Positions 3,998 through 39,444 of a stretch of DNA of 64,000 bases are shown here, piece by piece. Origin of the DNA: an uncultured Paracoccus sp. GTDB taxonomy: Bacteria > Pseudomonadota > Alphaproteobacteria > Rhodobacterales > Rhodobacteraceae. The stretch is taken from contig NZ_CALMYP010000022.1 of the NCBI RefSeq assembly GCF_937873615.1, positions 1-64,000 of the forward strand, written 5' to 3'. Position 1 is the stretch's first letter, and each line of letters starts with the position of its first letter. Under the pieces are notes generated by a model, which did not search any database, was not told the origin of the DNA, and worked only from the letters and a program-made list of their open reading frames with translations. The translations under genes and the position numbers were made by a program.

Positions 3998-4011
3998 GGG
4001 AGATGACCACC

Positions 4012-5925: not shown

Positions 5926-5942
5926 GCGCCGTCGATTCGTCC

Positions 5943-8333: not shown

Positions 8334-8351
8334 AATAGCTTCCTCTCTACT

Positions 8352-14595: not shown

Positions 14596-14597
14596 GG

Positions 14598-15332: not shown

Positions 15333-15337
15333 TTGGG

Positions 15338-16018: not shown

Positions 16019-16035
16019 TTCAGTCGTCTTTCAAA

Positions 16036-22209: not shown

Positions 22210-22224
22210 TGATCTGCTCGGTTC

Positions 22225-22506: not shown

Positions 22507-22522
22507 GCGAAGTTCCCTTGTT

Positions 22523-23474: not shown

Positions 23475-23606
23475 GTTCGGACTCTCCCGTTGAGAGCCCT
23501 TCTACTTCACGACACTAAGGCCATAAAGTCATATAGAGTCAATACGACATATTGCAGAATAATACAAATTGCACGATAGTTGCCGCAACTTTTGCGGGAG
23601 AGTGAC
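23475..23606. promoter_or_regulatory. Divergent promoter region of virB operon and exported-protein gene
   Basis: An AT-rich 132-base gap between divergent genes. It contains the near-palindrome AGTTGC-C-GCAACT at 23578-23590 and several CATAT/ATATTG stretches at 23529-23553. It probably holds both promoters and an operator. The XRE regulator at 24445 is a candidate binder; this is inference. Confidence 0.45.
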
Positions 23607-24185
23607 ATGAGACGACAGGCGATGGCGGCAGCTTTGGGGGTGATGGCGGTATTCGGAGCGCCGGAGAAGGCGCGGGCCTATGATATCGACTGCGCCATCA
23701 TGCTCTGCATGGCAGGTGGTTTCCCCCCGAGCGCGGTTTGCGCGCGGGCCTATCGCACGATGATTCGTCGGATTACCCCCTGGCCGAGCCTGCCGCCCTT
23801 CGGGGTTTGCACATTTGCCCATGTGCCGGTCGAACTGGGCGGGCCCGGCGGGGAAGGCGAACTCGACACCAACCTGCCGGAATACGAATGGCTGAATCGC
23901 ACGCATGTCATCTGGTTCTCTGGAAGATCCTACCAATCTCGTGACGAGCCGCGGCAATGGGACTGGTCGATCCGCTCCTGTGATCGCGAGAACCGGACCT
24001 GCCGCTACATCCAGCGGGTCTACGGATCCTACGCGCCCTGGCCCGCGACATTCATCTCGGAAAGCGGTCAGGAGATCGCCTATCCGACGGGTGGGGGCCT
24101 ATGGCACTTCTATTCTCGCAGCATCATGGTCGAGTACGGCGACTACGAGGGCAACATGGGCCACTCGGAGTGGTTTTCCTACTGA
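23607..24185 (+). CDS. Exported cysteine-rich protein, transfer-associated
   Basis: Start chosen at ATG 23607, preceded by GCGGGAG. The 192-residue product has a signal peptide (MRRQAMAAALGVMAVFGAPEKARA). The mature start YDIDCAIMLCMAGGFPPSAV is cysteine-rich, with further cysteines at VCARAY, GVCTF, SCDRENRTC. I recall similar exported proteins beside alphaproteobacterial virB clusters but cannot name a family. Divergent placement from the virB operon suggests a role in the transfer apparatus, such as surface exclusion or mating-pair stability. Confidence 0.6.
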   Translation: MRRQAMAAALGVMAVFGAPEKARAYDIDCAIMLCMAGGFPPSAVCARAYRTMIRRITPWPSLPPFGVCTFAHVPVELGGPGGEGELDTNLPEYEWLNRTHVIWFSGRSYQSRDEPRQWDWSIRSCDRENRTCRYIQRVYGSYAPWPATFISESGQEIAYPTGGGLWHFYSRSIMVEYGDYEGNMGHSEWFSY

Positions 24186-24379
24186 TCTGAGCTGTCACTG
24201 GGCGTCAGGGAAAACGGGCGCACGATGGCAAGACTGGCATCAAAGCGTTCCGGATCGACATGCCAACGACGGCTCACCGAGCCATCATTCCAACGGTAAT
24301 CGGTGAACAGGTGAATCTTCTGCGTCCCGTCGTTCAGAAACCCTTCCTGGAAAGGCCAGCCTGTCTTTCTCTTCGCCAT
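24179..24379 (-). CDS. Small hypothetical protein, 66 aa
   Basis: A 66-residue protein beginning MAKRKTGWPFQEGFLNDGTQ, with WHVDPERFDASLAIV in the second half. It is soluble with no recognised motif. The stop overlaps the 3' end of the exported-protein gene by 7 bases, convergent. It lies 65 bases downstream of the XRE regulator gene on the same strand and may be co-transcribed with it. Codon use is consistent with a real gene, but support is modest. Confidence 0.5.
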   Translation of the reverse strand: MAKRKTGWPFQEGFLNDGTQKIHLFTDYRWNDGSVSRRWHVDPERFDASLAIVRPFSLTPSDSSDQ

Positions 24380-24444
24380 GTATCCGCGCCACTCGTACTG
24401 TTCTTGCCGTTCTGTCTTTCGTGTTGGGTGGCGGGATCAAAGCC

Positions 24445-24666
24445 TCAGGAAACGGACTTGCGCTTCGCGAAGAGTTCTTCGGGGTCGACATTGAGCGCCT
24501 TGGCGATGCGTTCGAGAAGGTCGAGGGAAGCCGCGAACTTGGCGTTCTCGACCTTGCCCATATGGCCGCGGCTCACATCGGCCCGATGAGCAAGCTCCTC
24601 CTGGCTGAGGCCGCGGGCGCGTCTCAAGTCTTGGATGTTCAGTGCTACACGGTCCCGCAAGTTCAT
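24445..24666 (-). CDS. XRE-family transcriptional regulator, 73 aa
   Basis: A compact Cro/CI-type helix-turn-helix protein covering residues 8-62 (DLRRARGLSQEELAHRADVS, then RGHMGKVENAKF). Small solo regulators of this kind usually repress their own promoter and nearby plasmid genes. A 7-bp-arm inverted repeat lies 28 bases upstream of its start (24694-24710) and is a likely operator. Possible targets are its own operon and the virB promoter 1 kb away. Confidence 0.88.
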   Translation of the reverse strand: MNLRDRVALNIQDLRRARGLSQEELAHRADVSRGHMGKVENAKFAASLDLLERIAKALNVDPEELFAKRKSVS

Positions 24667-24693
24667 GCCCGTGAAACGGACACGGTGCGCGAA

Positions 24694-24710
24694 ATATCGC
24701 CACGCGATAT
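24694..24710. promoter_or_regulatory. Putative operator of the XRE regulator
   Basis: Perfect inverted repeat ATATCGC-CAC-GCGATAT, 28 bases upstream of the regulator's ATG, where a repressor would block its own promoter. Confidence 0.5.
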
Positions 24711-24996
24711 ATGTTACATTCGGAGGCGCAGAGAATAATTCTTGGGACGGCGCGAGATCGCCGGAATGGGATTCCTGCCGATACGCAGGTCACGGGATGA
24801 TCCGTCTCGCAAACATTATTTGCCGCTCAGTTGCTCTTTCGGAAAAGGGCGGCACCGGCAATACCGGTGCCGCCAGTCGGTCGTCCACTGGGAGGTTGTA
24901 GAAGACGAATTCTACTCGGGATTCGGAAACACTTCGGGTCAGGGGGCGCAACATGAAGGCCCATCGCCGGCCTGAGACGGGGTATGTGAACCGCTG
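24711..24996. other. Gap between XRE gene and orotate operon
   Basis: Contains the upstream region of the XRE gene and, at 24841-24874, a strong terminator for the minus-strand orotate operon. No gene was seen. Confidence 0.5.
24841..24874 (-). terminator. Rho-independent terminator of the orotate operon
   Basis: On the minus strand an 11-bp perfect stem (GGCGGCACCGG / CCGGTGCCGCC, 5-base loop) is followed by C and TTTTCC. It lies about 120 bases after the malic enzyme stop codon, the last gene of the operon. Confidence 0.85.
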
Positions 24997-26322
24997 TCAC
25001 GCTATTGCGAATTCTTCTACGATAGGACGCTCAATCATGCAGGGTTCATGAACGTACCGGTCGAGATATTGCCGATATGCTTCCAGATCTGGGATTGGGC
25101 GGGTAGCGACCCCACTTGTCATCGCAGCCTTGGCGACAGCTGGCGCAATTTCGAAGATCAGACGTGGATCGAAGGGCTTGGGAATAAGATAATCGGGACC
25201 AAAAGAAAAGCTGTCAACCCCATAGGCTTTGAGCACCAAGTCCGAAACGCCCTGCCTTGCCAAAGCAGCGATCTCGCGCGCGCAGGCCATTTTCATGTCT
25301 TCGTTAATCTCTGTCGCGCCAACGTCCAGCGCACCGCGAAAGATAAACGGGAAGCAGAGCAAGTTATTGACCTGATTGGGGTAATCGGAGCGTCCCGTAG
25401 CGATTAGCACGTCGCTCCTTGCAGCCTTCGCGACTTCCGGCCTGATTTCAGGTTCCGGATTAGCCATGGCAAGAACTACGGGATCGGGCGCCATCGAACG
25501 GACCATGTCCTCGCTCAAAGCACCCGCGACCGACAGGCCCAGGAAAAGGTCCGCACCCTTAACCGCATCGGCCAGAGTCCGCGCCTTCGTATCACCGGCG
25601 AAGCGCAGCTTTGTCTTGTCCATAAGGGGGCCGGGCCGACCTTCATAGATAACGCCGCTTCTGTCGCATACGGTGATGTTGCTGCGCTGCGCACCGAATG
25701 AGATCAGCAATTCCAGGCAGGCGATCGAGGCCGCGCCGGCCCCGTTAGCGGCAATCCTGATTTCCGAGAGGTCCTTGCCGACGATCTCCATTGCGTTGAG
25801 GACGGCAGCAGCAGCGACTATGGCGGTGCCGTGCTGATCGTCGTGGAACACCGGAATGTTCATGCGCGCGCGCAGGTTGCGCTCGATCTCGAAGCATTCC
25901 GGTGCTTTGAGGTCTTCGAGGTTGATGCCGCCGAAAGTCGGCTCAAGCGGGGCAACCGCGTTGCAGAACGTGTCGACATCGCACGCATCGAGTTCGAGGT
26001 CGAAGGCGTCAATCCCCGCAAATTGCTTGAAGAGCGCCGCCTTGCCTTCCATCACCGGTTTGGAGGCAAGGGGACCGATGTTTCCAAGCCCAAGTACTGC
26101 AGTGCCATTGGTGACAACCGCAACGAGGTTGCCGCGCATGGTGTAGTCGAACACCTTTCCAGGGTTACTCGCTATCTCGTTGCAGGGCACCGCTACGCCG
26201 GGGCTGTAGGCGAGAGAAAGCTCTTTCTGGGTCATCATGGGCTTGGTCGGAATGACCGCAAGTTTTCCCCGCGGCTCGACAGCATGATATTGGCGGGCTT
26301 CTTCTTCAAAAAGGCTTTTCAT
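24997..26322 (-). CDS. NAD(P)-dependent malic enzyme, short form
   Basis: Oxidative decarboxylation of malate to pyruvate, 441 residues. The N-terminal catalytic domain includes [13 protein letters not shown] and [34 protein letters not shown] follows, then the nucleotide-binding domain with [17 protein letters not shown] near residue 180. Most proteobacterial MaeB proteins are about 750 residues with a C-terminal phosphotransacetylase-like domain. That domain is absent here. It is the final gene of the operon, 22 bases after aspA, and would carry orotate-derived C4 acids to pyruvate while regenerating reduced cofactor. Cofactor preference cannot be read from sequence. Confidence 0.92.
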
Positions 26323-26344
26323 TTGGCTTGTTCCGTTGGGCGTA

Positions 26345-27730
26345 TCAAAGATGTGCCAGGCTTCGCGATATAGTTTCCCGGAAATCGTTGCGGGTCATCA
26401 GCCCCCTTTCGACGACAATGTCTTCGACAGTGCGACCGTTCTTTTGAGCGTCTTTGGCTACCGTGGCGCTGGTCTCATAGCCCAATGTGGGCACTAAAGC
26501 CGTCACAAGGACCAGACTACCGGCCAGAAGCGCGGCGCACCGATCGCGATCGACAGTGATCCCGTCCACGCAACGCACCCTAAGCGTTCGCAGGGCGTTC
26601 TCGAGAATTCGGATGGATTCAAGAAGGTTGTAGGCGATCACGGGTTCCATGGCGTTGAGCTGAAGCTGGCCGGCCTCCGCCGCCATAGTGATTGTCAGAT
26701 CGTTGCCGACGACTTGGTAGGCCACCTGAGACACTACTTCGGGGATTACAGGATTGACCTTGCCCGGCATGATCGAAGAGCCTGCCTGAACTGCGGGCAG
26801 GACGATCTCGCCGAGCCCGGCCCTTGGCCCGGAACTGAGAAGTCGCAGGTCGTTGCAGATTTTCGAGACCTTGATCGCGACGCGACGCAGCAGTCCCGAA
26901 TAGGATACCAGCGCACCCATGTCCGACGAGGCGTCGATCAGGTCGCTGGCGCTGCGCAAATCGTGACCGGAAATCTCGCTCAAATATTTGACCGAAAGCT
27001 CGGCATAGCCATCGGGGGCGTTGATGCTGGTGCCGATGGCCGTGCCGCCGAGATTGACGACACGCAAGATCTTGGACAGGTCCTCGAGTCGCGAAATTTC
27101 TTCGGTCAACGCCGCCGCATAGGAGGCGAATTCGCGGCCGACCGTCATTGGTACTGCGTCCTGCAACTGAGTTCGTCCGACCTTGTGAATATCCGCGAAT
27201 GCTCTGGCCTTGGCAGCGAAGGAGCCCAGAAGTGCGCGCTGTTCGCGGATCAGACCCTCCGCCTTGGCAAGAACGGCAAGACGAATGGCGGTAGGATAGA
27301 CGTCGTTCGTCGACTGCGAGCAGTTCACGTGGTCATTGGGATGGATGAAGTCGTAGACACCCTTATCGCGACCGGCGAGCTCAGCGGCTAGGTTGGCGAT
27401 GACTTCGTTGGCGTTCATGTTCGTCGAGGTGCCCGCGCCGCCCTGAATCATGTCCACCACGAAGGAGTCATGATGCGCGCCTGTGATGATAACGCGGCAC
27501 GCCTGTTCAATGAACTCGGCCCGCTCGGATTCCAATGCGCCCAATTCGCGGTTGGCCCGACACGCCGCCAATTTCACCTGGCACAGGGCCGCGATGAATT
27601 CCGGGAAGTGGCTCAGGGTGACGCCAGTGATTGGGAAGTTCTCTATGGCGCGGGCCGTGTGGACCCCGAAATAGGCGCCGGATGGCACAGATAGAGTGCC
27701 GATTGAATCGCGTTCTGTTCGTTTGGTCAT
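26345..27730 (-). CDS. aspA: Aspartate ammonia-lyase
   Basis: Converts L-aspartate to fumarate and ammonia, 461 residues. Fumarase/aspartase superfamily signatures are clear: [17 protein letters not shown] near residue 100, [17 protein letters not shown] near 135, and the flexible loop [15 protein letters not shown] near 315 with the catalytic serine. Aspartase is favoured over class II fumarase by overall resemblance and by context: the operon makes aspartate. It follows the 106-residue unknown gene and precedes malic enzyme. Confidence 0.88.
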
Positions 27731-27761
27731 GACGGGCGTTCTTTCTGTACGGGCCGAGATG

Positions 27762-28082
27762 TCAGGCTTCCTGATCTACGAGTGTCTTGGCCGTTTGGTT
27801 GATTGCGTTCAGCCGCTCCGCAGGGTCGCTCTTGGCGAATGCCGCATCCAGTCGATCAGTCTCGGCCCTGATCAAGTCGAACCACCGGACACATTCAGCC
27901 GTCGGGAGTGCCTGGCGCTCGTACCTTTCGACGAACAGTTCGGCAATGCTGGCCAGCAGGCTCCAGGCTGCGACCGATTCAGGGTTGTTTGCAGCCCGCG
28001 TCCGCGCGACATCGGCGGCTATGCTGAAAGCGTGGGTGCTCTTGCCGTAGTTTTCCAGGGTCGCAATGAGTTCGCTGAACAT
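27762..28082 (-). CDS. Unknown 106-aa protein in orotate operon
   Basis: A soluble helical protein beginning MFSELIATLENYGKSTHAF, with helix-forming heptads and no recognisable motif. It starts 2 bases after the pyrE stop and ends 31 bases before aspA, so it is an integral operon member. Possibilities are a small enzyme subunit, a chaperone or an effector-binding protein. I do not recognise the family and assign no function. Confidence 0.7.
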   Translation of the reverse strand: MFSELIATLENYGKSTHAFSIAADVARTRAANNPESVAAWSLLASIAELFVERYERQALPTAECVRWFDLIRAETDRLDAAFAKSDPAERLNAINQTAKTLVDQEA

Positions 28083-28084
28083 GC

Positions 28085-28789
28085 TTATCTCGTTTGTTCC
28101 AGAATGGAGGTGGCGCCGCCATGGTCGGCGGACCAGGCCAGTGGTTCGGTCAAAAAGGATTCTATCTCTGCAAGGGTCGCAGCGTCGAAAACACTGGTCT
28201 CCTTGGCGACGATCAGCACGTCCTGCCAGGTGGCAAGACTGTGCAGCGTGAGCCCGTGCTCGGTGAGATTTCGGCGTGTTGCGGGAAAGATATCGTAGAA
28301 AAACAGCATGATCGTATGGTCCACGACCGCCCCAGCCCTACGAAGGGCGTTGCAGAAGTTGATCTTGCTGCCCCCGTCAGTGGTCAGATCTTCAACCAAG
28401 AGAACCCGTTGTCCGTCAATGAGATTGCCTTCGATCTGCGCGTTGCGTGCGAATCCTTTCGGCTTCTTGCGGACGTAGTGCATGGGCAACCCTAGGTCTG
28501 CCGCCAGCCAGGCCGCGAAGGGAATGCCCGCGGTCTCTCCGCCGGCGACGCAGTCGATCGTTTCGAATCCGACCTCGCTCATCAGAACCGACCCCATAAA
28601 ACTCAACAGGGTTTCCCGTATGCGGGGGAACGCGATGACCTTTCGGCAATCGATATAGACCGGGCTTGCGATGCCCGAAGTGAAATGAAACGGCGTGGTC
28701 TTGGAATAGTGGATCGCGCCTATTTCGAGCAGCATTTTAGCGGTGTCGCGGGCGATCCGATCCCGGTCGGGAAAGCCGTAGGATTTCAT
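28085..28789 (-). CDS. pyrE: Orotate phosphoribosyltransferase
   Basis: Transfers orotate to PRPP, giving orotidine 5'-phosphate. Start chosen at ATG 28789, overlapping the pyrC stop (ATGA), for 234 residues; the reading to 28831 intrudes into pyrC. The PRPP-binding motif [14 protein letters not shown] is near residue 130, and [17 protein letters not shown] is the flexible loop. In this operon it would divert imported orotate to UMP through PyrF (40925). Confidence 0.93.
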
Positions 28790-29856
28790 TGCTTGTCCCC
28801 TTGTACCTGTGATCGCGGATCGACCTGCCAATACAGCGGGAAGCCGGGGTCGAACACGGTGACATAGTCCTCACCGACACCTATGTCGGTCTCGAATTCA
28901 ATCGGAGTATCGCGCTTGATCAGACGAATTTTTTCCGCATTCGGAGTAAGGCCGTAGAACCGCGCGCCATATTGCGATGTGAAACCTTCCAGCAGGTCCA
29001 GTTTGCCGTCTGTTTCGAAGACACTGGCAAGCACCGGCATCGCGTTGATCGCCGTAAACATCCCGGCACAGCCGCAGGCGCATTCCTTGGACGACCGAGA
29101 GTGCGGCGCGGAATCCGTGCCGAGAAAGAACCTCGGGTCGCCCGAGGTTGCTGCAGCGCGAAGGGCAAGGCGATGCGTTTCGCGCTTGAGAACCGGGAGG
29201 CAGTAATAATGCGGGCGGATGCCGCCCGCCAGGAGGGCATTTCGGTTCAAGACGAGGTGATGAACGGTCAAGGTGGCCGCAAGGTTGCGTTCGCCGGCGA
29301 TGACGAAATCCACGCCGTCCTTGGTGGTGACGTGCTCCATCACGATACGAAGGCCGGGCAGCAGTTCGCGCAGAGGCGCAAGAACCCGGTCAATAAAAAC
29401 CGTTTCGCGGTCGAAAATGTCGACTTCGCGGTTCGTCACTTCACCGTGCACCAAAAGGGGCGCGCCGATTTCGGCCATCTTCTCTAGGACGGGCATGACC
29501 TTTGTGATATCGCTAACGCCCTTGTCGGAATTGGTCGTGGCACCGGCGGGGTAGAGTTTCACCGCCTTGATCACCCCGGCCTTGAAACCACGGGCGACCT
29601 CGTCGGGCTGCGTCATATCCGTGAGATAGAGTGTCATAAGCGGTTCGAAACGGTCTTGGGTCGGAATGGCAGCAAGGATCCGGTCGCGATAGGCAAGCGC
29701 GGCATCGACGGTGGTCACCGGCGGCACAAGGTTCGGCATGATGATGGCGCGACCGAAATCGCGGGTCGAATGTGGCAGCACCGTTTGCATCATCGCGCCG
29801 TCGCGCAGATGCAGATGCATGTCGTCGGGGCGCGTCAGTGTCAGTTCATCCGTCAT
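28786..29856 (-). CDS. pyrC: Dihydroorotase, class II
   Basis: Interconverts dihydroorotate and N-carbamoyl-L-aspartate, 356 residues. Metal ligands are visible in order: DMHLHLRDG near residue 12, the carbamylated lysine in [11 protein letters not shown] near 100, LVHGEV near 137, MEHVTT near 177, and the catalytic aspartate in [14 protein letters not shown] near 250. It overlaps the upstream amidohydrolase gene by 11 bases and pyrE by 4. In a catabolic setting it would open the dihydroorotate ring. Confidence 0.95.
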
Positions 29857-31135
29857 GGATCGGTCCTTTCATGAGATATGAATAGATGATCGACGTGCCC
29901 GCGAGGAAATCGTCGATTTCCATGGCCTCGTCTGGGTTGTGTGACCCATTACGGTTGCGGACAAAGACCATGGCAGTGGGCACGCCCGCATTGGCAAAAA
30001 CCGCCGCATCGTGCCCCCCGCCCGAGGCCATGACCATGGGTGCCTGCCCGTTTCGCGCCATCGCCTTCTTCAACCCGGCGACGACACTATCGTTCATCAG
30101 GGCTGGGGCCGTGGTGTTGACCTCGTCCAGCACGAAGCGCACGCCCCGTCGATTCTCTGTCTCGGCGACTTCGCGCAACAGCATCGCGTGCATGCCGTCC
30201 AGCGTTTCCTGGCTTTGACTGCGGATATCGAGCGAGAAATCCACTTGATCGGGAATGCGCGACATGGCGTTCTTGTCGGGATCGGTATGCACGACGCCGG
30301 TCGTCAGGACGAGGTCGCCGCCTTTCTGGACGATTGACAGCCAGGCTTCGTCCAGCCGCGACAGAAGATCGGCCATGGCCAGCACCGGATCGCGCCGGAA
30401 GGCGCGCGGCACGGCGCCGGAATGACCGGGTTCACCGATGCAGCGGATTATTTTGTATCGGAAATTGCCGCGAATGCTCGACACCACGGCTGCCGGGACA
30501 TCCTTGCCGATCAGCAAGGGACCCTGTTCGATGTGCAACTCGATGTATTCGAGGATGCGATCAGCTTCCATCAGCGGCGTTCCGGAGCGCACCGGGGCCA
30601 TGTTAATGCCGACACTCTCCATGTGTTCGTAGAGCTTGCGCAGATCCCCCTTGTGGGTGGCGGCAAGCTCGGTGCCCTTGAGCGCGCCCATCAGTGCTTT
30701 CGAGCCGATATAGCACGGCCCAAACCAGGCGCTCTCCTCTGCGCGCATGGCAATCACCTTGACAGGGCGGGCAAAGCGCGTGCCGCTGCCCTGCGCGCGA
30801 AGAAGGCACATGAGGCCCGCGATCACACCGGCCAGGCCGTCAAAGTTGCCACCCATGGGCACGCTGTCGACATGGCTTCCGATCAGCACGTACTCTTGGG
30901 CCGTTGCATCCTCGGGTAGGCTCATCAAGAGGTTCTGGCCGGCGTCGAAATCCGCGACCAGCCCATGCGCCTCGCAGACGGATTTGAGGTAGTTCAGCGT
31001 CGCTGTTTCGACCTCGGAAAAGGCAGGGCGGCTGACCCCGGCCTTGTCCGGGCTGATCGCGGCGATATCGTCAAAGAGCCGTGCGGCAAACGCCAGCTCA
31101 TTGGCGACCATCGGTAGGTCCGCGACGTCGTTCAT
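29846..31135 (-). CDS. M20-family N-carbamoyl amino acid amidohydrolase (ureidosuccinase candidate)
   Basis: A 429-residue zinc amidohydrolase of the hydantoinase/carbamoylase type (related to N-carbamoyl-L-amino-acid hydrolase and allantoate amidohydrolase). Metal-site motifs are [21 protein letters not shown] near residue 85, RAEESAWFG near 130, and [10 protein letters not shown] near 195. The dimerisation segment GHSGAVPR is near 235. Placed between pyrD and pyrC with overlaps of 4 and 11 bases, the expected substrate is N-carbamoyl-L-aspartate, yielding aspartate, ammonia and CO2. Substrate is inferred from context; close relatives act on other ureido compounds. Confidence 0.85.
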
Positions 31136-32076
31136 GGCGCCGTTTCCATGAAGACGACGGCGTCGGCGGCATCGTCATCGCGGACCGATCCGATCAGTTC
31201 AGACAGATCGGCGATACCGTGCTTGGTCATGTAGGCTTCCAGCCCGCTGATAATGTTCGGCATTGCCGTCGGGTTGATGAAGGTCGCCGTTCCGACCTGC
31301 ACCGCCGATGCCCCGGCGATCAGGTATTCGACCACGTCCTCGACGGTGGAAATGCCGCCGCAGCCGATCACCGGAATGTCCACGACCTTGGCACATTGAT
31401 ACGCCATGCGCAGCGAGATGGGCTTGAGCGACGGGCCCGACAGTCCGCCCATCAGGTTGCCCAGCTTGGGTTTGCGCGACTGGATGTCGATGGCCATCGA
31501 CAGAAGCGTATTGGACACGACAAGGGCATCTGCCCCGGCCTCCTGCGCGGCCAGGGCAACCTCGACCGTCTCGCCGGTGTTTGGCGAGAGCTTGGCCCAG
31601 AGCGGCAGGTCTGATGCCCCGCGCAGCTTGGTCATCACCTGCTGCGTGGATGAAGGGCGCATGGCAAAGGCCTTGCCGTTATCCTCGATGTTGGGGCACG
31701 AGATATTGATCTCGATCGCATCCACACCGGGTACTGTGATTGCCTCGCAAATGCGGGCGAAATCGTCCGCGTTGTGGGCGGAGATGCTGACCACAAGAGG
31801 CACATCGTAGTCTCGGTAATAGGGAACGACATTCTGGATGAAATGGTTGATCCCCTTGGATGGAATGCCAATCGAATTCAGCATCGATCCGCGCACCTCG
31901 CAGACGCGGGGCGTCGGATTGCCGCCGCGCTTCTCGTAGGTGATCGTTTTGGTCACATGCGCGCCGAGCGCGTTCATGTCGATCACACCGGCCAGATCCT
32001 CGGAAAAAGTGCCAGAGGCCGGCATGATTGGGTTCTTGAGCGTGATCGTGCCCAGTTTTGTCGTCAGGTCTACCAT
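31132..32076 (-). CDS. pyrD: Dihydroorotate dehydrogenase, class 1B catalytic subunit
   Basis: FMN enzyme of 314 residues interconverting orotate and dihydroorotate. Characteristic segments are KNPIMPASGTF near residue 14, the catalytic cysteine in INISCPNIEDNG near 130, and GGLSGPSLKPISL with VIGCGGISTVEDV in the C-terminal FMN-binding part. Co-occurrence with PyrK marks it as class 1B, the NAD-linked form that can run as an orotate reductase. Alphaproteobacteria normally use the membrane class 2 enzyme, so this plasmid form is additional. It overlaps pyrK by 7 bases. Confidence 0.93.
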   Translation of the reverse strand: MVDLTTKLGTITLKNPIMPASGTFSEDLAGVIDMNALGAHVTKTITYEKRGGNPTPRVCEVRGSMLNSIGIPSKGINHFIQNVVPYYRDYDVPLVVSISAHNADDFARICEAITVPGVDAIEINISCPNIEDNGKAFAMRPSSTQQVMTKLRGASDLPLWAKLSPNTGETVEVALAAQEAGADALVVSNTLLSMAIDIQSRKPKLGNLMGGLSGPSLKPISLRMAYQCAKVVDIPVIGCGGISTVEDVVEYLIAGASAVQVGTATFINPTAMPNIISGLEAYMTKHGIADLSELIGSVRDDDAADAVVFMETAP

Positions 32077-32912
32077 CCCATTGCCTCCTGCATGTCGAAG
32101 ACCGGGCCTTCGCGGCAGACCCGTTCGTGGACGATCTGGTTGTTACGGCGGAACGAGCGAACGCAGCACTGGCACATGCCCAGCCCGCAGGCCATCTGCT
32201 GCTCCAGTGCAATCTCGCCTGGGATCCCGTGTTCTGCGCCGATCTCCTGCAGCAGAGTGAGCATCCTGTTGGACCCGCAGGTATAAAGAGCGTCGACCTC
32301 TCCGGCGCCGATCTTATCTTGGATGATGGCCTTGATGTTCTCCATCCCCGAAGAACCTTCGGCATCCGTCACGGTGATCACTTCGGCCCCCATCTCGCGA
32401 AACAGTTCCACCGACATCAGCACCTCGGGCGAGCGTGCTGAACAGATTGCCGTCAGCTTCCGGCCGCGCCGCTGCGCTTCCTGCGCAAGCGGGGCGAGGG
32501 TGGCCAGGCCGACCCCACGGGCGACCAGCAACAGCTGCTGCCAGTCGTCGCGGATCGAGTAGCCTTTGCCCAACGGTCCGAGAACGTTGAACGTATCACC
32601 GGGCAGCAGTTCCGCCAGCGCGCGGGTGCCTTCGCCCGTGACCTTGTAGAGAAAGTGCAACTCGCTCTTTTCGGGGTAGAAGCCGTAGATGCTCATCGGG
32701 CGGCGAAGGTAGGGCGCGTTCTGCGATGTCACGGGGCAGAGAAGATGAAAGAACTGGCCGGGCTGGCAATCCAGCACCTTCTGCGGCGCATCCAGGATCA
32801 GCAGGCGGTACTCTCCGTTCACCTCGTCGTTGCTCTTGACCCGGGTTTCGACTTCGAAGGCTTCCCCGTTCGCCGAGGAGGATACCCCGACGCTCTTGTC
32901 GAATTGTTTCAT
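32070..32912 (-). CDS. pyrK: Dihydroorotate dehydrogenase electron-transfer subunit
   Basis: Iron-sulfur flavoprotein of 280 residues linking PyrD to NAD(H). The FAD-binding motif LRRPMSIYGF is near residue 72 and the NAD domain begins around QLLLVARGVGLATLAPL near 125. The [2Fe-2S] ligands are in CGLGMCQCC near 241 with a fourth cysteine at ERVCREGPVF. The first 20 residues are a non-conserved extension. It precedes pyrD with a 7-base overlap and follows the TRAP permease by 14 bases. Confidence 0.93.
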   Translation of the reverse strand: MKQFDKSVGVSSSANGEAFEVETRVKSNDEVNGEYRLLILDAPQKVLDCQPGQFFHLLCPVTSQNAPYLRRPMSIYGFYPEKSELHFLYKVTGEGTRALAELLPGDTFNVLGPLGKGYSIRDDWQQLLLVARGVGLATLAPLAQEAQRRGRKLTAICSARSPEVLMSVELFREMGAEVITVTDAEGSSGMENIKAIIQDKIGAGEVDALYTCGSNRMLTLLQEIGAEHGIPGEIALEQQMACGLGMCQCCVRSFRRNNQIVHERVCREGPVFDMQEAMGW

Positions 32913-32926
32913 GGTATCTTTCCTTG

Positions 32927-34213
32927 TTAGCCGAAGATCAGCTTCGGAATGAAGAGTGAGATGTCGGGTACGTAGGTCACTATCAGCAGCACGATCAGGT
33001 TGACCGCCACGAACGGCCAGACGCCTTTGATAATCTCTACCACCGGTTTGCTCAGCGTCGAGGAGGCGACGAAGATGTCCAACCCGAATGGGGGGGTGAT
33101 CATTCCGAGCGAGATGTTAAGCGTGACGATCATCCCGAAGTGGACCGGGTCGATGCCAAGCGAGTTGGCAACCGGGTAGAGAGGCGGCACCAGGATTAGC
33201 AGGGCCGAATTCGGGTCGATAAACATGCCCGCAATCAGGAAGCACACGTTTACCACCAGCAGGAAGGTCAGCGGTCCGGCCTCGATCATTGTCAGGAAGT
33301 CGGTGATCTGGTTCGGCACCTGCGCCAGCGTCACAAAGAACGAGATCAACCCGCCCATGGCCAGCAGTACGAAGATCACCGAGGTCGATATCGCGCTTTG
33401 CTCGGTGATGCGGACGAGGTCGCCGAATTTAAAGTTCCGGTAGACGACCATCTCGACGAAAATAGCGTAGATGACGCTGACTGCGGCGGCCTCGGTCGGG
33501 GTGATGGTGCCTGAGTAGATGCCACCCAGGATGATTGTCGGCATACCGAGCGCCCAGCCAGCGGTCTTCACAGCTTTCGCGCGTTCCGCCCAAGTAGTCT
33601 TGGTATCACCAGTGATGCCTGCGCGGCGCGCTTCGATCATGACGTAGATTGCAAAGGCCAGGCCCAGGAACAGTCCAACCGCCAGACCGCCGGCAAAGAG
33701 TCGTGCGATTGAGGTCCCGGTCATCCAGCCGTAGATGATGAAGGTGATCGACGGAGGGATCAAAAGCGCGGTTTCCGCGCTGGACACCAAAAGACCAAGG
33801 CTGAATTTTTCGCTGAAACCCGACTTGCGCATTTCAGGGTAGACCATCTTGCCCATAGCGGCAACGGTGGCCGGCGCAGAACCCGAGACGGAGCCGAAAG
33901 CCATCGAACCGCCGATCACGGTATGGCCCATACCGCCGCAGGTATGGCCGATAAGAGACCGGACAAGCTCGGTCAGGTTGCGGGCGATCTGGCCGGACCC
34001 CATCAGATGCGCGGCAAAGATGAAGAATGGAATGGCAAGCAGTGTAGTATGGTCGATCCCGCCAAAAATCTTTTGGACCACCGCAGGGTCGGGCAGTTTG
34101 CCGAAATACGCTTCCTTGATGGCCAGGGCCGGAAGGCCGAGGACAAAGAACATTTCGAAGCCTAGGACCAGAAGGACCAATGCGAGGACGGCGATAAGAG
34201 CGATCACGATCAA
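32927..34213 (-). CDS. dctM: TRAP transporter large permease (DctM)
   Basis: A 428-residue integral membrane protein of about 12 helices, the main translocation subunit of a TRAP uptake system. DctM-type segments include PFFIFAAHLMGSGQIARNL near residue 58, SGSAPATVAAMGKM near 110, and GMITPPFGLDIFVASS near the C-terminus. Its start overlaps dctQ by 4 bases. Context suggests orotate or a related ring carboxylate as cargo. Confidence 0.94.
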   Translation of the reverse strand: MIVIALIAVLALVLLVLGFEMFFVLGLPALAIKEAYFGKLPDPAVVQKIFGGIDHTTLLAIPFFIFAAHLMGSGQIARNLTELVRSLIGHTCGGMGHTVIGGSMAFGSVSGSAPATVAAMGKMVYPEMRKSGFSEKFSLGLLVSSAETALLIPPSITFIIYGWMTGTSIARLFAGGLAVGLFLGLAFAIYVMIEARRAGITGDTKTTWAERAKAVKTAGWALGMPTIILGGIYSGTITPTEAAAVSVIYAIFVEMVVYRNFKFGDLVRITEQSAISTSVIFVLLAMGGLISFFVTLAQVPNQITDFLTMIEAGPLTFLLVVNVCFLIAGMFIDPNSALLILVPPLYPVANSLGIDPVHFGMIVTLNISLGMITPPFGLDIFVASSTLSKPVVEIIKGVWPFVAVNLIVLLIVTYVPDISLFIPKLIFG

Positions 34214-34710
34214 TGGTCCACTTCGGGCTGGTCGGGTGTCGAGAAGCGGTCGATCACGCCGAGGAAACTCAGGGCGTAGCGCAGGGCGAGAAGGGCAAAC
34301 CCGATAACCGGCGCGAGATAGATGTACCCGGTTTGAAGGCCCAGCGTTGGGCTGGTTTGGCCGGTGCCCAGGACGAAGGTGACAAGCCCGTATCCCAGCC
34401 AGACCATGTAGACCGAGAACAGGAAGCCGCTGGCGTCTATAACCTTGAGCAGGACCTTGCGCGGCGCATCGGGCAGTCGGTCGCGCAGTGTGTCGATGCC
34501 CATATGTTTACCGCGCTCCAAGGCGAGTCCGAGGCCGAGAAATACCAGAAAGATGTTCATGAACCGGACGGCCTCTTCAATCCAGGCGAACTTGCTGGCG
34601 AAGGTTCCACCGATTTCACGGGTCACGACACTCAGAAAGAAGATACCTGACATCGTCAGAAACAGGGCGACCAGGGCCGTGCGCTCGGCCATTCGCAAAT
34701 AGGTCAACAT
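34210..34710 (-). CDS. dctQ: TRAP transporter small permease (DctQ)
   Basis: A 166-residue protein with four hydrophobic helices (about residues 10-30, 45-62, 88-106 and 130-148), typical of DctQ. The motif FMNIFLVFLGLGLALERGKHMGIDTL is the family core (written here in part: LERGKHMGIDTL). It overlaps dctM by 4 bases and lies 114 bases after dctP. Confidence 0.92.
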   Translation of the reverse strand: MLTYLRMAERTALVALFLTMSGIFFLSVVTREIGGTFASKFAWIEEAVRFMNIFLVFLGLGLALERGKHMGIDTLRDRLPDAPRKVLLKVIDASGFLFSVYMVWLGYGLVTFVLGTGQTSPTLGLQTGYIYLAPVIGFALLALRYALSFLGVIDRFSTPDQPEVDH

Positions 34711-34824
34711 TGTGAGAACCCTTTCAACGTGAGGGGAAGGACGGCACGGTCCGCAACTATCCAGCCCGTGCGGTGCCCCGAACGCGTCGGCCGGAATTGC
34801 CGGGCGTCCGGGGTGCGTGCAGAC

Positions 34825-35847
34825 TCAGTTAGCGACCTGCTTTTCGTAGATAGAGATCAAGGCCGCGCCTTCATCACCGGCCTGTGCGACATAGGCGGCT
34901 TTCGCAGGCTCAAACATCTTGTCACGCAAGGCGGCCCGCTCCTCCGGCCCAGCCACTCGAACGTTGATGTTACCGCTGGCTTCGATTTGTGCCAACGCAT
35001 CCGCGACAGCCGCCGCCTTGTGCGCGGTCAGCTCCGGCACCACTTCGTTAAATGCGACGGTGATGATAGAGCGGTACTCGTCAGGCAGACTCTCCCACCA
35101 GAGCGGATTGAACAAGACGACGTCTTCCATTGCGCCATGCTCCGACACGACGAGATATTTCTGTACCTCGTGGAACTTCATGCGAAGAATTGTATCGAGC
35201 GGGTTTTCCTCACCGTCGACGACACCTGTCTGGAGCGACGTGTAGAGTTCGCCGAAGGGCAGCGCAATCGCGGAAGCGCCGAGGGCGTTGAACTGCTCGA
35301 TCAGGATACGGCTGTCCATGACACGGAACTTCTGGTCGGCGAACGTTGCCACGTCATCAAGCGGTCTGTTCGAGGTGAAATTCTTCTTGCCGTTGGGCCA
35401 GAGTGCGACCCCAACGAGCCCACGCCGGTTGAACGACTCCAGCAGAGCCTGTCCGAAGGGCCCTTCGCGCAGGGCTTGAGCTGCCTCGGGATCTTCCGGT
35501 ATCAGGTACGGGATGTCGAGCACGGACACGACGGGATTGAAGCCGCCGAGGAAGGCTGCCGGCGAAACAGTTGCCTCGAGCGTGCCTAGCTGCACGCCTT
35601 CCGTCATCTGGCGCTGATTGCCTAGCTGGCTGGACGGAAAGATCTGAAACTCTACGTTTCCGTCGGTTCGCTCGGACACGAGCGCTGCGACCTTCTCCAA
35701 AAAAATGTGGCGCGATTGCGCTTCCGACTCAAGGTGTCCGATCCGGGCAACGAAGTCCTGCGCAAACGCCGGGATGGACGCCAGCGATACCGCGGCGAAG
35801 AGCGCTCCGCCTAGGATTGTACGGGTGAGTTTTGTTGATTCGATCAT
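34825..35847 (-). CDS. dctP: TRAP substrate-binding protein (DctP family)
   Basis: Start chosen at ATG 35847, which has AGGAGG 7 bases upstream and begins a signal peptide (MIESTKLTRTILGGALFAAV, cleavage after AFA). The mature protein of about 313 residues is a periplasmic DctP receptor. The conserved arginine segment KKNFTSNRPLDDV and FRVMDSRILIEQF hold the carboxylate-binding residues. It is promoter-proximal in the orotate operon. Ligand inferred as orotate from the downstream enzymes; this is not visible in the sequence itself. Confidence 0.92.
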   Translation of the reverse strand: MIESTKLTRTILGGALFAAVSLASIPAFAQDFVARIGHLESEAQSRHIFLEKVAALVSERTDGNVEFQIFPSSQLGNQRQMTEGVQLGTLEATVSPAAFLGGFNPVVSVLDIPYLIPEDPEAAQALREGPFGQALLESFNRRGLVGVALWPNGKKNFTSNRPLDDVATFADQKFRVMDSRILIEQFNALGASAIALPFGELYTSLQTGVVDGEENPLDTILRMKFHEVQKYLVVSEHGAMEDVVLFNPLWWESLPDEYRSIITVAFNEVVPELTAHKAAAVADALAQIEASGNINVRVAGPEERAALRDKMFEPAKAAYVAQAGDEGAALISIYEKQVAN

Positions 35848-36000
35848 GGAAACCTCCTGTTGGTAGTGCGCATGAAAACAACCGACCGTATCATTGTCAA
35901 TAAAAATCTCAATATTGCGACATACAAAGAGAGGGTCTCGGCATTGAGAAGCGCGCCCTAATACGCTAAGTGATTGGGTGTCAAAGAGGTCATTACGATA
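35848..36000. promoter_or_regulatory. Divergent control region of the orotate operon and its regulator
   Basis: A 153-base AT-rich gap. It includes the perfect palindrome CAATATTG at 35910-35917 and a half-site CAATA at about 35898, which may be an operator for the XRE regulator. The ribosome site AGGAGG for dctP is at its left end. Confidence 0.5.
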
Positions 36001-36915
36001 ATGCACAGCCAGTTCGACTCAATTCTCCAGGTAGGGGAACGCCTTAGGTCTTATCGCCTGGGTCGTGGGCTGACGCCGGACGACGTAGCGAAGCATACCG
36101 GGGTGTCGCGCGCAGCTATCTATCGCTACGAGTCCGGGCAACCCATCAGGGTGGACGTACTCGGCAAGATTGCCGACTTTTTGGATGTTTCGCTGTCGAC
36201 GCTTCTTGGCGTGGGGTCTGAATACACGGCATCCGCGCTCACTTTCTTTGAACGGATGCGGCAGATCGAAGCCACAGCGGACCACATTTCAGTGCTCTTC
36301 GGGCCGGTATCCTATCTTTTGACAACCGACGCGTTCGACGATGCACTGCGGGATATATTGCAGGAGAGCGCGCCGAAAGAGGTAGTCGATTGCGAGCACT
36401 TTCGCGAGGAACTGGATCAGATCCTGGAAGTCCTGCGCGCGCGAAAAAGAGCATATCGTGCGCGTCGACCAGGCATACTGAGCTTGGTGTCGAGCGCCGA
36501 ACTGGAGCAATTCGCCACGTTGGGTTTTGTCGGTACACATGACGTGCGCGAACCTGAACGTTGCCGTCGTCGCGAGATTGCGCGCGCCGAGATCAGAAAC
36601 ATTATGACGCTTATCACTGAACAGCCGATCGGCGTTCAAATTGGCATTGTGGAGGATTCGATGCCCGGAACGAGCTTTCAGCTTTTTCGCCAAGGAAAGC
36701 ATGCACAAGTTGCTGTCAGTCCTTTTCGTCTTGGATTGTACGCTAACGTGAGAATCGGTGTTGCATCAATCTCCAGTGACCAAGAGTCTCTCGCACTTCA
36801 CCAGCGCGCAACGGAAGGCTTGTGGAAGAGAAGTCTAAAAGGCGTAGAAGCGTTTAAACGGTTGGAACGCATACTCGTGGAGTGCCCCCCTGAGGTGGTC
36901 CATCAACTGGGATAG
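36001..36915 (+). CDS. XRE-type regulator divergent from the orotate operon
   Basis: Start chosen at ATG 36001 (MHSQFDSILQVGERLRSYRL), 304 residues. A helix-turn-helix of Cro/CI type occupies about residues 15-65 (LTPDDVAKHTGVSRAAIYRYESG). The C-terminal 230 residues are unlike cupin or sugar-binding sensor domains and probably sense the substrate. I recall similar regulators beside Rhodobacteraceae TRAP operons. Placement 153 bases from dctP, divergent, strongly suggests it controls that operon. Confidence 0.85.
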   Translation: MHSQFDSILQVGERLRSYRLGRGLTPDDVAKHTGVSRAAIYRYESGQPIRVDVLGKIADFLDVSLSTLLGVGSEYTASALTFFERMRQIEATADHISVLFGPVSYLLTTDAFDDALRDILQESAPKEVVDCEHFREELDQILEVLRARKRAYRARRPGILSLVSSAELEQFATLGFVGTHDVREPERCRRREIARAEIRNIMTLITEQPIGVQIGIVEDSMPGTSFQLFRQGKHAQVAVSPFRLGLYANVRIGVASISSDQESLALHQRATEGLWKRSLKGVEAFKRLERILVECPPEVVHQLG

Positions 36916-36973
36916 ATTGGTCTCGTTTGGAGCGCTCCCGCGTACACCCAATGTCGCCGCCGGCAAGAGTAAA

Positions 36974-37207
36974 AGAAAGGGAAGCCCGGTTGCCGGGCTT
37001 GAAAGGATAGAGAGAGTCTCTTCCGGGTCCGGCGTGACAAGGACACTGACCATGGCCAAGACCGCGACTCGCCCGAAACCCGCCACCACGAAGAAGACCG
37101 AAACCGCCGGATCGGCCGCGCCTGACGGCGCAGGCGACATCCGGATGATCCCGCTCGACCAGCTGGAGCCGAGCCCGCTCAACGTCCGCAAAGTCGCCGC
37201 CAGCGCC
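36974..37207 (+). repeat. Duplicated 234-base parB leader and 5' segment, left copy
   Basis: This segment aligns without gaps to 44063-44296, with roughly one substitution in eight to ten bases. It contains a conserved hairpin (AAGCCCGG / CCGGGCTT near 36981-37000), the ribosome site and the first 52 codons of the parB-like gene. It ends exactly where an IS66-type end (GTAAGC) begins at 37208. Confidence 0.85.
37052..37207 (+). pseudogene. parB-like gene, 5' fragment cut by IS66
   Basis: Codes for 52 residues beginning MAKTATRPKPATTKKTETAG and ending at RKVAASA. This matches the first 52 residues of the 723-residue ParB-like protein at 44141 with few changes. The reading is cut at 37207 by an IS66 end, so the gene is broken. 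The remainder of this copy is not present in the window. Confidence 0.85.
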
Positions 37208-37456
37208 GTAAGCATTCGGCGTAGGCCGCGGTCATGCGGCGAGTTGGCGCTCCGATGGCTGCCAGTTCCATGGCAACAGACCCGGCACGCGGGATGGCGT
37301 TGCGCTGGGGAGCTTGGCGAGGACGTCAGCAAGCCAGGCCTGGGGAACGGCGTCATTCACTTTGGCCGTGGCGATCAGGGAATACATGAAGGCAGCGCGG
37401 TCGCCGCCACGTTCCGACCCCGCGAAGAGCCATGATTTCCGGCCGAGCGCCATCAC
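37208..37456 (-). mobile_element. IS66-type fragment 1 (transposase C-terminus)
   Basis: The terminal GTAAGC at 37208 marks an IS66 end. Minus-strand frame 37232-37456 encodes the transposase C-terminus: ALGRKSWLFAGSERGGDRAA, MYSLIATAKVNDAVPQAWLADVL and the family-typical LLPWNWQP. The remaining transposase, helper genes and other end are missing, so this is a remnant. Confidence 0.85.
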
Positions 37457-37916
37457 CCGTTCATTCTGCCCATGTCGGGGAAGAGCGGGAAGTTCATTAT
37501 CGTTGGCATCCTTATTTCGGCCTGAAAGTCAGCGTGCGGCGGGTGGAGCAGCGCGTAGCGGGGCAGTTTCTCAAGGTGGAAGGCCCGTCTGGCGTTGTCG
37601 TCTCGATCGCTGACTGGATGTTGGATCCCGTCGTCTGCGCCGAAATGAGCATTGGCAGTCCACAGGTTGATCTCGCGGCGTTGGCGGAACTCAGGAGGCT
37701 GATGACGCCGGCCACTGTTTTTGGACACTCCCGAAGCGAATGTGGAATCGCAAGGGAGGACGTTGATGAAACAGCACGACATGTCGGTGCCGAGCTCGGG
37801 CAGGCAGCTGAGCCTGGTGTTCGAGCCTCGCAAGGTGGACGGGATGAACGACATGGAGCGGGCGGAGGCGACAATTACACATGCCCAGCTTCTGATGCAG
37901 GCCGCGGGCCTGATCG
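37457..37916 (+). pseudogene. DUF5372-like protein and partner ORF, truncated by IS66
   Basis: A frame without its own start reads VHYRWHPYFGLKVSVRRVEQ and GVVVSIADWMLDPVVCAEMS, which I recall as a DUF5372-type protein found with recombinase-type mobile elements. An overlapping frame from ATG 37766 begins MKQHDMSVPSSGRQLSLVFE, another element-associated small protein. It is interrupted at 37916 by an IS66 end. Both look like relics; the left junction is near 37457. Confidence 0.6.
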
Positions 37917-39444
37917 GTAAGCGGGCAACCGAGGCCGTTCAGGGTTGGTAGTTCCAGGGCATGAGTTGGTCGATCTTGGCGCGCGGCCATTGGTTGGCGA
38001 TGCGCTGGAGGGTCTGAGTCAGCCATGCGACAAGATCGACGGCGTTCATTTTGCAGGTCTGCAGAAGCGTGGCGATGGTGGCCCATGTTCGGCCCCCGCC
38101 GTCGGACCCGGCGAAGAGACTGTTCTTTCTTGTTATTGTCTGGGGCCTGATGGCGCGCTCGACGATATTGGAGTCGAGTTCGACGAGACCGTCGGTGAGG
38201 AAGCGCTCGAAGATTTCGCGCCGGGTGATTGCATAGCGCAGGGCCTCGGCCAGCTTTGATTTCCCCGATATTCGTGGCAGGGTCGCCTGCCACAGCGCGA
38301 ACAGCTCCGCGACGATCGGCGCCGAGACGGCCTGACGGGCGGCGATGCGCGCCTCCGGGCTCTGGCCGCGAACCTCTGCCTCGAGCTTCCAGAGATCGGC
38401 CATCCGCAGGGTCGTGTCGGTGGCCACCTGCGAGGCACCGGCTTTGTGCAGTTCATAGAACCGACGCCGGCTATGGGCCCAGCACCCGGCCAGGCGCGGG
38501 CCGTCATTGCCGCCATCCTTGCGCACGAGCTTGTTGTAGGCGGCATAGCCGTCGACCTAGCAAATGCCGCGATAGCCGGTGAGATGGCGCTGTACGCAGT
38601 CGCCGGACCGGCTGTCCTCGAAGCGGTAGGCCACCATGGGCGGCCCGCTGCCGCCGAAGGTGCTGTCGTCGCGGGCATAGGCCCAGAGCCAGGCCGTCTT
38701 CGTGGCGCCGGTGCCGGGAGCGAGGGTTGGCAGGCTGGTCTCGTCGGCGAAGATGCGCGCGCCCTTTCGGACCTCGCCCAGGACATGATCGGCAAGAATG
38801 TCGAGCTCGAAGCCGACGCGGCCCATCCATTGCGCCATCAGCCGCCGGTCGATCTCCACCCCGTCGCGGGCATAGATCCCCTCCTGGCGGTAGAGCGGCA
38901 GGCCATCGGCATATTTCGAGACGGCGACCTGCGCCAGGAGCGCCTCGGTCGGAATGCCGCCCTCGATGATGTGCGCCGGGGCCGGAGCCTGAATGACCCT
39001 GTCGGCATTCTTGAAGGCATATTTGGGCCGACGCGTGACGATCACCCGGAACTTCGCCGGGATGACATCGAGGCGCTCCGAGACATCTTCGCCGATCAGC
39101 ACCTTCTGTTTGCCGGCGTGTTCCGGCAGGTCCTCGGGCTCGATCACCACCTCAATCCGTTCCAGATGCGGCGGAACGCCCTTGCGCGGGCGCGGCGAAC
39201 GCTTCTCGGCAGCGGTGCTACCCTTGCCGACCTGAGCCCTGAGAGCGGCGATGCCGGTCAGGGTCTCCTCGAAGACGAAGGCCCGCTGTGCGTCCGCGTC
39301 ACCGGAGAACGCGCCGGCACCAAGCTTCTCCGAGCGCCGCCCGAACCGTGCGCGATCGTAGGCCTTCAGGGCAAAGGCGCGGCGGTGCGGGAACTGGTCG
39401 GCTTCATGTGGGCCATTGCCCGGACGGAACCGATGGAAGTCTGA
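37917..39444 (-). mobile_element. IS66-type element 2, inactive
   Basis: GTAAGCGGGCAACC at 37917 is the IS66 end next to the transposase 3' terminus. The element reads on the minus strand through tnpC. No intact tnpA or tnpB was found; the left part fades into unrecognisable sequence near 39440. It interrupts the small gene at 37766. Confidence 0.8.
37939..39420 (-). pseudogene. tnpC: IS66 transposase tnpC with internal stop
   Basis: The frame is continuous from about 39420 (FGRRSEKLGAGAF) to the stop at 37939, ending LMPWNYQP, except for one TAG at 38557-38559. It interrupts the conserved GYRGI..VDGYAAYNKL motif. IS66 hallmarks such as PTEALLAQVAVSKYADGLPL, CWAHSRRRFYEL and NSLFAGSDGGGRTWA are present. 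The N-terminus is incomplete. A functional transposase is unlikely. Confidence 0.85.

Follow-up and report, generated by a model that had tools for sequence, protein, structure and literature searches.

Orotate is best known from pyrimidine synthesis, in which it is an intermediate. Clostridium (Zymobacterium) oroticum ferments it via dihydroorotate, carbamoyl-aspartate and aspartate, and in the reductive breakdown of pyrimidines PreAT or PydA, a dihydropyrimidinase and an M20 beta-ureidopropionase reduce the base, open the ring and remove the carbamoyl group. Orotate uptake as a plasmid trait is represented by OroP, the plasmid-borne orotate transporter of Lactococcus, which serves salvage and is not known to come with breakdown genes. 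Among tripartite ATP-independent periplasmic (TRAP) transporters, orotic acid appears as a ligand from a binding-protein survey in a 2018 review (PMC5812351), and a 2024 paper describes the TRAP protein of Maridesulfovibrio salexigens with the structure 4NN3 as bound to orotic acid (PMC11668362). Here we describe a locus in 64,000 bases of DNA from an uncultured Paracoccus sp. (the window) that combines genes for a TRAP transporter with genes for pyr-type enzymes, and that is very probably an inducible operon for the use of external orotate.

The route predicted for this locus is chemically that of C. oroticum. The window set differs in being proteobacterial, in having a dedicated transporter, a regulator, an aspartase, a malic enzyme and apparently mobile DNA, and in offering a concrete gene candidate for the 'ureidosuccinase' that would hydrolyze N-carbamoyl-aspartate. 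It shares the sequence of reduction, ring opening and carbamoyl removal with reductive pyrimidine breakdown, but would take a 6-carboxylated base to aspartate, using pyr-family enzymes. The chemistry is thus already known, and so is an orotate-binding TRAP protein, since 4NN3 held orotic acid. New are a clade of pyr-linked M20 enzymes as ureidosuccinase candidates, a near-constant 106-residue protein that is sometimes fused to the M20 enzyme, and a TCTCA-N4-TGAGA palindrome. No description of the operon, the spread of the module, the M20 clade, the fused small protein or the operator was found in open-licence papers, to which the search was confined, and the words orotate, pyrimidine and uracil are absent from PMC10130141 in a word search.

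Genes of the window locus

Eleven genes lie on the minus strand between positions 24997 and 35847, in the order dctP, dctQ, dctM, pyrK, pyrD, a gene for an M20 enzyme, pyrC, pyrE, the gene for the 106-residue protein, and genes for an aspartase-like protein and a malic enzyme. An earlier note on this DNA had given the same order, which the family matches bear out; its description of the genes as overlapping holds for five of the ten junctions and fails for the other five, the widest gap being the 114 bases between DctQ and DctP (the starts of DctP at 35847 and PyrE at 28789 were taken from translations). The match of DctP to 4NN3, the presence of duplicate pyr genes in the host, and the recurrence of a core with other transporters and enzymes agree with one another, and together they point to the uptake and breakdown of orotate, as the earlier note had proposed.

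By far the closest solved relative of the binding protein DctP (34825-35847) is 4NN3, with 433 bits and an E-value of 7.2e-129 against 172.4 bits and 1.5e-49 for the next structure. A profile built from DctP and eight relatives on plasmids matches the same Protein Data Bank (PDB) entry with 534.8 bits (E 6.7e-160; next, 209.2 bits, 7e-61). The 2024 paper states that 4NN3 has a lysine at position 152 where other TRAP proteins have an arginine (PMC11668362), and the window DctP has a lysine at the place aligned by eye to this position in the paper's numbering. We infer that orotate is the ligand of the window DctP. No operon function reported for the 4NN3 protein was found in the open-licence papers searched. 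The permease subunits are encoded by dctQ (34210-34710; Pfam DctQ) and dctM (32927-34213; Pfam DctM, with TIGR00786 above its cut-off).

The electron-transfer subunit PyrK (32070-32912) matches the Pfam family DHODB_Fe-S_bind with 44.2 against a cut-off of 23.9 and has the cysteine motifs. It adjoins a class 1B catalytic subunit, PyrD (31132-32076), which exceeds the cut-offs of NF005574 (352.6 versus 269) and TIGR01037 and carries a NISCPN motif, so that a 1B-type PyrD stands next to a PyrK with an iron-sulphur motif. PyrC (28786-29856), a dihydroorotase of the dimer class, scores 439.2 bits against the TIGR00856 cut-off of 292.95, and the orotate phosphoribosyltransferase PyrE (28085-28789) scores 362.9 bits against 245 for NF001729. 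Neither carAB nor pyrB is found among the operon proteins in Pfam and NCBIfam scans, which agrees with the earlier note. The host has a second pyrE (53%) and pyrC (66%), adjacent on contig C65 and both above equivalog cut-offs, a quinone-type pyrD on contig C17, and a pyrB above cut-off on contig C15. The operon is therefore not needed for synthesis, because the PyrD, PyrC and PyrE steps as well as PyrB are encoded elsewhere, and the earlier view that this is not a de novo pyrimidine operon stands.

The M20 enzyme (29846-31135), a predicted N-carbamoyl-L-aspartate hydrolase, belongs to the hydantoinase/carbamoylase family TIGR01879 (270.2 bits, cut-off 204) and misses the equivalog cut-offs of ErtE (270.3 versus 520) and AllC (195 versus 597.75). 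ErtE, the N-carbamyl-L-glutamate amidohydrolase, is likewise an M20 enzyme, with a substrate one carbon longer than carbamoyl-aspartate, but the operon enzyme lies far under its cut-off. The host encodes an ErtE equivalog elsewhere (547.1 versus 520), and its other M20 enzyme adjoins a PyrD/PreA-like fragment where a contig ends. A tree of M20 enzymes (27 rows, midpoint root, fused rows trimmed to the M20 part, L065 and L083 left out for stops due to faulty frame coordinates) places 18 module enzymes and three PyrE-adjacent enzymes in one group with a support of 88/94; four relatives without pyr context and the host's two other M20 enzymes fall outside it. Only this grouping is used, because the tree has long branches at the outgroup rows. 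From the gap in the pathway and the gene context, we regard the pyr-linked clade as candidate ureidosuccinases. A 2013 paper on reaction modules puts an uncharacterised M20 gene next to X1, a PyrD relative described as unknown, when dealing with the breakdown of purines and pyrimidines (PMC4016543), an association different from the pyr-linked module described here.

The aspartate ammonia-lyase-like protein (26345-27730) exceeds the cut-off of the subfamily PRK12273 (691.9 versus 510), and a host lyase elsewhere is 39% identical to it. The last gene encodes a short malic enzyme of the MaeB type (24997-26322; 441 aa; Pfam malic and Malic_M), which matches the 764 positions of PRK12861 over 8-436 only and below cut-off. 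Three malic enzyme relatives elsewhere in the host have frames of 763-769 aa, which presumably carry the PTA half. Past this gene, a GC-rich stem of 10 pairs followed by TTTT was seen by eye at about 24843-24873 on the minus strand. The terminator of the earlier note may be this stem, although a mechanical scan of 23000-39500 did not list it. ARAGORN found no tRNA in the window, and no Rfam family reaches its gathering score in 24500-37500.

Recurrence of the core and its variants

The neighbourhoods of 88 DctP relatives, namely eight plasmid regions and the best 80 of 157 confirmed genome loci, were compared using tblastn matches, a profile and gene calls by a hexamer-scored caller. PyrK, PyrD and M20 stand beside the TRAP genes in 69 of the 88, and this recurrence makes the operon more than a chance arrangement. 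Within these 69 core loci, a related regulator is found in 68, the 106-residue protein in 66, PyrE in 60, PyrC in 27, aspartase in three and malic enzyme, within the stretches fetched, in none. The core common to most relatives is hence TRAP-PyrK-PyrD-M20-PyrE-106-residue protein plus regulator; of the further genes in the earlier note, PyrC is optional, aspartase rare and malic enzyme absent from those stretches. The carriers are, as titled, mostly Rhodobacterales and Rhizobiales, plus Thalassospira, and include the marine Thalassovita aquimarina and Oceanibium sediminis; two core copies are titled chromosomal (L021, L080) and six are on plasmid records (L005-L009, L012). By sequence, the locus closest to the window is L014, from a Rhodobacteraceae genome bin. 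In the Nitratireductor plasmids (L006, L007, L012; about 19264-22571) a second TRAP transporter lies directly downstream of the orotate module.

The remaining 19 loci are without PyrD and M20, three of them (L040, L049, L075) lying on contigs too short to decide the matter. A second orotate route was looked for in four of the TRAP-only loci (L042, L045, L060, L070; 10 proteins viewed by Pfam) and none was seen, since the neighbours look unrelated: a phosphoglycerate mutase with an S41 peptidase, alpha-amylase-type proteins, a flavoprotein with LodA, and an enolase-superfamily protein. Prevalence searches score few candidates per genome, so that their counts, each including the starting genome, are lower bounds. 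Positive genomes number at least 13 of 295 in the family and at least two of 385 in the class; for the Desulfobulbaceae locus L040, at least one of 395 genomes of its phylum was positive, namely the starting genome. For the M20 enzyme, the count is at least eight of 398 genomes of the phylum.

The 106-residue protein (27762-28082) is predicted to be all-helical, with five helices in a model of pLDDT 96.3. It has no Pfam or NCBIfam match, no PDB match at E < 1 by structure, and none better than E 0.071 by sequence profile. Its description as an unknown protein holds for family matches and needs correcting in one respect, as it is a near-constant component of the operon. It is present in none of the 19 loci without PyrD and M20. 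Three core loci are without it (L037, L081, L084), L084 being a stretch that stops 136 bases past M20, and of the nine core loci that have no PyrE match, seven keep it (L044, L068, L073, L076, L082, L088, L089). The count of 66 of 69 is partly circular, because 47 of the 48 sequences of the profile come from the counted loci; called open reading frames alone give the gene in 63 of the 88 loci, and seven of eight further plasmid loci outside the profile have the domain. In Agrobacterium and Neorhizobium the domain is fused to the C-terminus of the M20 enzyme (profile E about 1e-21 to 1e-23 at a database size of 10,000), as counted from two Agrobacterium plasmids, on which the 552-aa protein is annotated, and from a 555-aa Neorhizobium frame on a record without annotation. 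Frames of 538 to 1039 aa around M20 were also considered as fusions and rejected, being without the 106-residue domain or a PyrC match; they look like high-GC read-through. Free-standing relatives occur in Klebsiella, Variovorax, Cupriavidus and Pseudomonas putida (E 1e-10 to 1e-12). The simplest reading is that the 106-residue protein is probably a partner of the M20 enzyme.

Related enzymes are also found with transporters of another type. The M20 enzyme matches 89 plasmid records at E up to 1e-60, and PyrD matches 86 at E up to 1e-50, with 53 from Klebsiella in either case; eight of these plasmid regions were examined. Klebsiella grimontii has a divergent major facilitator superfamily (MFS) gene, PyrK, PyrD, M20, PyrC, a regulator and a 106-residue relative, and Variovorax has MFS, PyrK, PyrD, M20, PyrC, a regulator, a PyrE relative and a 106-residue relative. 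The P. putida module consists of a divergent regulator, a hypothetical protein, MFS, PyrK, PyrD, M20, a non-orthologous dihydroorotase of another type (PRK09236 above cut-off), a 106-residue relative and a 422-aa malic enzyme. That of Cupriavidus campinensis comprises a divergent regulator, MFS, PyrK (45%), PyrD (54%), M20 (45%), PyrC (52%), aspartase (54%) and a 430-aa malic enzyme (59%), with a 106-residue relative past the regulator. Roseomonas combines a LysR-type regulator with MFS, PyrK, PyrD, M20 and PyrE, and the two Agrobacterium regions and Neorhizobium have PyrK, PyrD and the fused M20, with no TRAP match in the fetched 19 kb. The best model for the five MFS proteins is the aromatic acid/H+ symporter TIGR00895, all scoring below cut-off. 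Two genomes, which belong to different classes, thus have both aspartase and malic enzyme with the core, and a third has malic enzyme; all module malic enzymes, including that of the window, are short. One viewed Klebsiella region (L124) carries its MFS-type orotate module (5179-10795) close to arsenic resistance genes (near 12044), and a megablast search of 5,426 E. coli genomes gave no near match to the Klebsiella module.

Regulator, operator-like palindrome and contig

Divergent from dctP, and as the earlier note had read it, lies a regulator gene on the plus strand (36001-36915, ATG at 36001) that encodes an XRE/HTH_3 domain and a C-terminal part. The latter has no Pfam match and no sequence match in the PDB; in a model of pLDDT 87.4 it gives weak PLD/FAM83-like matches (best E 1e-4, TM-score to query 0.34) that are not used as evidence. 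In L052 (7886-8791), L075 (79-984) and L084 (7941-8852), a second relative of the regulator adjoins the first on the opposite strand.

In the 153 bases between regulator and dctP, a palindrome proximal to DctP (35907-35920) has one mismatch to TCTCANNNNTGAGA and occupies the same place in relatives. A -35-like TTGACA (35895-35900, minus strand) lies 6 bases downstream of it, and a second palindrome, also with one mismatch, lies at 35936-35949. Upstream of dctP, 68 of 69 core regions contain TCTCA-N4-TGAGA with up to two mismatches, compared with 335 of 1360 stretches drawn at random from these loci; the figures are 65 of 69 versus 59 of 1360 for up to one mismatch, and 65 of 69 versus 18 of 1360 when TTGAC follows within 18 bases downstream. 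The core set of this comparison is the window plus 68 loci, with L029 in the TRAP-only group because of miscalled genes; the random stretches may include true operator sites, and the window entered without TTGAC since its distal palindrome was scored, the proximal one being that which precedes TTGACA. In the TRAP-only group (20 rows), five have the palindrome with up to two mismatches, four of which keep the regulator (L024, L049, L051, L061), and three have TTGAC behind it. In Agrobacterium (two loci) and Neorhizobium (one), the palindrome is perfect and precedes TTGAC. In seven upstream stretches of the beta- and gammaproteobacterial and Roseomonas modules, the best palindrome has one to four mismatches, which is not clearly above chance. 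Across the whole window there are 185 sites with up to three mismatches versus 192 expected by chance, three sites with one mismatch and no perfect one; two of these three lie in the dctP-regulator intergenic region. A palindrome directly upstream of a -35-like element would suit an activator.

The draft genome amounts to 3.86 Mb in 74 contigs; one of these, 77,886 bases long, contains the window as its bases 1-64000. The contig carries a relaxase, a coupling protein, CagX, TrbI, TrbL/VirB6, and ParA-type and ParB-type proteins, and no replication initiator was identified among the scanned proteins, which covered part of the open reading frames. It looks like a plasmid and may instead be an integrated conjugative element. 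The earlier claim that the operon is plasmid-borne agrees with the relaxase, type IV secretion and ParA/ParB-type genes, though the contig need not be a closed replicon. The conjugation genes, for a relaxase, coupling protein, CagX, TrbI, TrbL/VirB6, a T2SSE ATPase and SLT, lie at 2069-5925 (plus strand) and 12191-19360 (minus strand). Adjacent genes for HamA and HamB of a Hachiman-type defence are located at 8352-11893 (minus strand; PADLOC, 481 bits for HamA and 1365 for HamB), and a protein with a Tle1-like phospholipase domain (PF09994; 5943-7364, minus strand) is encoded between the coupling-protein gene and HamAB. Farther along are a 1480-residue Strawberry-notch-type helicase-domain protein (PF13872, PF13871; 49597-54039, plus strand) and an open reading frame at 59398-60177 (plus strand) with a match to the YjhX toxin family (PF09857) in its last 85 residues; this frame may exceed the gene.

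Proposed route and alternatives

We propose that DctPQM imports orotate and that PyrDK, running in reverse, would reduce it with NADH to dihydroorotate, whose ring PyrC would open with water to give N-carbamoyl-L-aspartate. The M20 enzyme, probably with its 106-residue partner, would hydrolyze this to aspartate, NH3 and CO2, an irreversible step that would therefore pull the route. Such a pull would matter because the quinone-type PyrD of the host could re-oxidise dihydroorotate. In the window, the aspartase-like protein would then release NH3 from aspartate to form fumarate, a presumed host fumarase would hydrate fumarate to malate, and the short malic enzyme would yield pyruvate, CO2 and NAD(P)H, returning reducing power. 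PyrE may divert some orotate to UMP, and TCTCA-N4-TGAGA, which directly precedes the -35-like element, would be the binding site of the XRE regulator. The sum would be orotate + 3 H2O = pyruvate + 2 CO2 + 2 NH3. If malic enzyme and PyrK draw on one nucleotide pool, the route would be redox-neutral overall, and this balance would explain why the malic enzyme travels with the module.

Several observations weigh against this reading. PyrK is below all NCBIfam PyrK cut-offs (best 141.1, where four PRK00054 models need 219 to 314) and is therefore PyrK-like by neighbour and motif only. The aspartase-like protein is below the aspA equivalog TIGR00839 (607.9 versus 681.2), which its Cupriavidus counterpart passes (694). 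Aspartase is confined to three core loci (L014, L015 and, partial, L027) and malic enzyme is missing from all 69 in the fetched stretches, so that the last steps of the route are accessory. Since MaeB enzymes typically use NADP and PyrK uses NAD, the redox balance is tentative. Nine core loci have no PyrE match above threshold. In L138-L140 (G1266, G1409, G1249) an M20 relative adjoins PyrE with no PyrDK match within 19 kb, so that the clade may also serve without orotate reduction; the arrangement nevertheless fits a pyr-linked substrate. The Roseomonas module (L122) has no 106-residue relative in the fetched stretch, and relatives of this protein occur on 12 Acinetobacter records (33-37% among the four rows listed), with no pyr gene nearby in the two examined (L145, 8001-8333; L146, 7001-7333). 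As a separate observation, the M20 enzyme beside pyrE in L138-L140 is possibly a drain for carbamoyl-aspartate.

Pyrimidine salvage, in which imported orotate mainly feeds PyrE and UMP and the other genes only manage an excess, would account for the PyrE matches in 60 of 69 core loci, and enteric bacteria are reported to take orotate as a pyrimidine source via DctA. We consider it unlikely, as the host has its own pyrE, pyrC, pyrD and pyrB, M20, aspartase and malic enzyme would destroy the precursor, and the nine loci without a PyrE match keep PyrK, PyrD and M20. Still less probable is that the transporter imports dihydroorotate or N-carbamoyl-aspartate and that PyrDK works oxidatively. Class 1B dihydroorotate dehydrogenases are reversible, and the DctP ligand is predicted from sequence; yet PyrDK, needless for breaking down either compound, is present in 69 of 69 core loci, and 4NN3 bound orotic acid according to the 2024 paper (PMC11668362).

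The M20 enzyme might also have a different ureido substrate, ureidopropionate or N-carbamoyl-glutamate for example, in an operon serving another heterocycle. The many substrates of the M20 family would allow for this, and carbamoyl-aspartate appears in no name among the enzyme's 25 listed models (28 matched). Set against the host's separate ErtE equivalog and its further M20 enzyme beside the PyrD/PreA-like fragment, the scores below the ErtE and AllC cut-offs and the common grouping of the pyr-linked enzymes, we rate this possibility as equally slight. An operon for the use of external orotate thus remains our strongly preferred interpretation. A more far-reaching hypothesis, to which we give about an even chance, is that a mobile orotate-catabolic module is spread across alpha-, beta- and gammaproteobacteria, that M20 and the 106-residue protein, as a new subunit or chaperone, are the missing N-carbamoyl-aspartate hydrolase, that an XRE switch with a new sensor domain acts via TCTCA-N4-TGAGA upon orotate, and that the longest form, in the window genome and a betaproteobacterium, gives a redox-balanced conversion of orotate to pyruvate.

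A dedicated operon for uptake and breakdown would make orotate a carbon and nitrogen nutrient in its own right. It would also provide a testable ureidosuccinase gene, a likely role for a nameless protein family and a candidate regulon motif. For annotation, it suggests the rule that pyrK-pyrD be taken as a sign of breakdown rather than synthesis where an M20 hydrolase and a transporter are adjacent.

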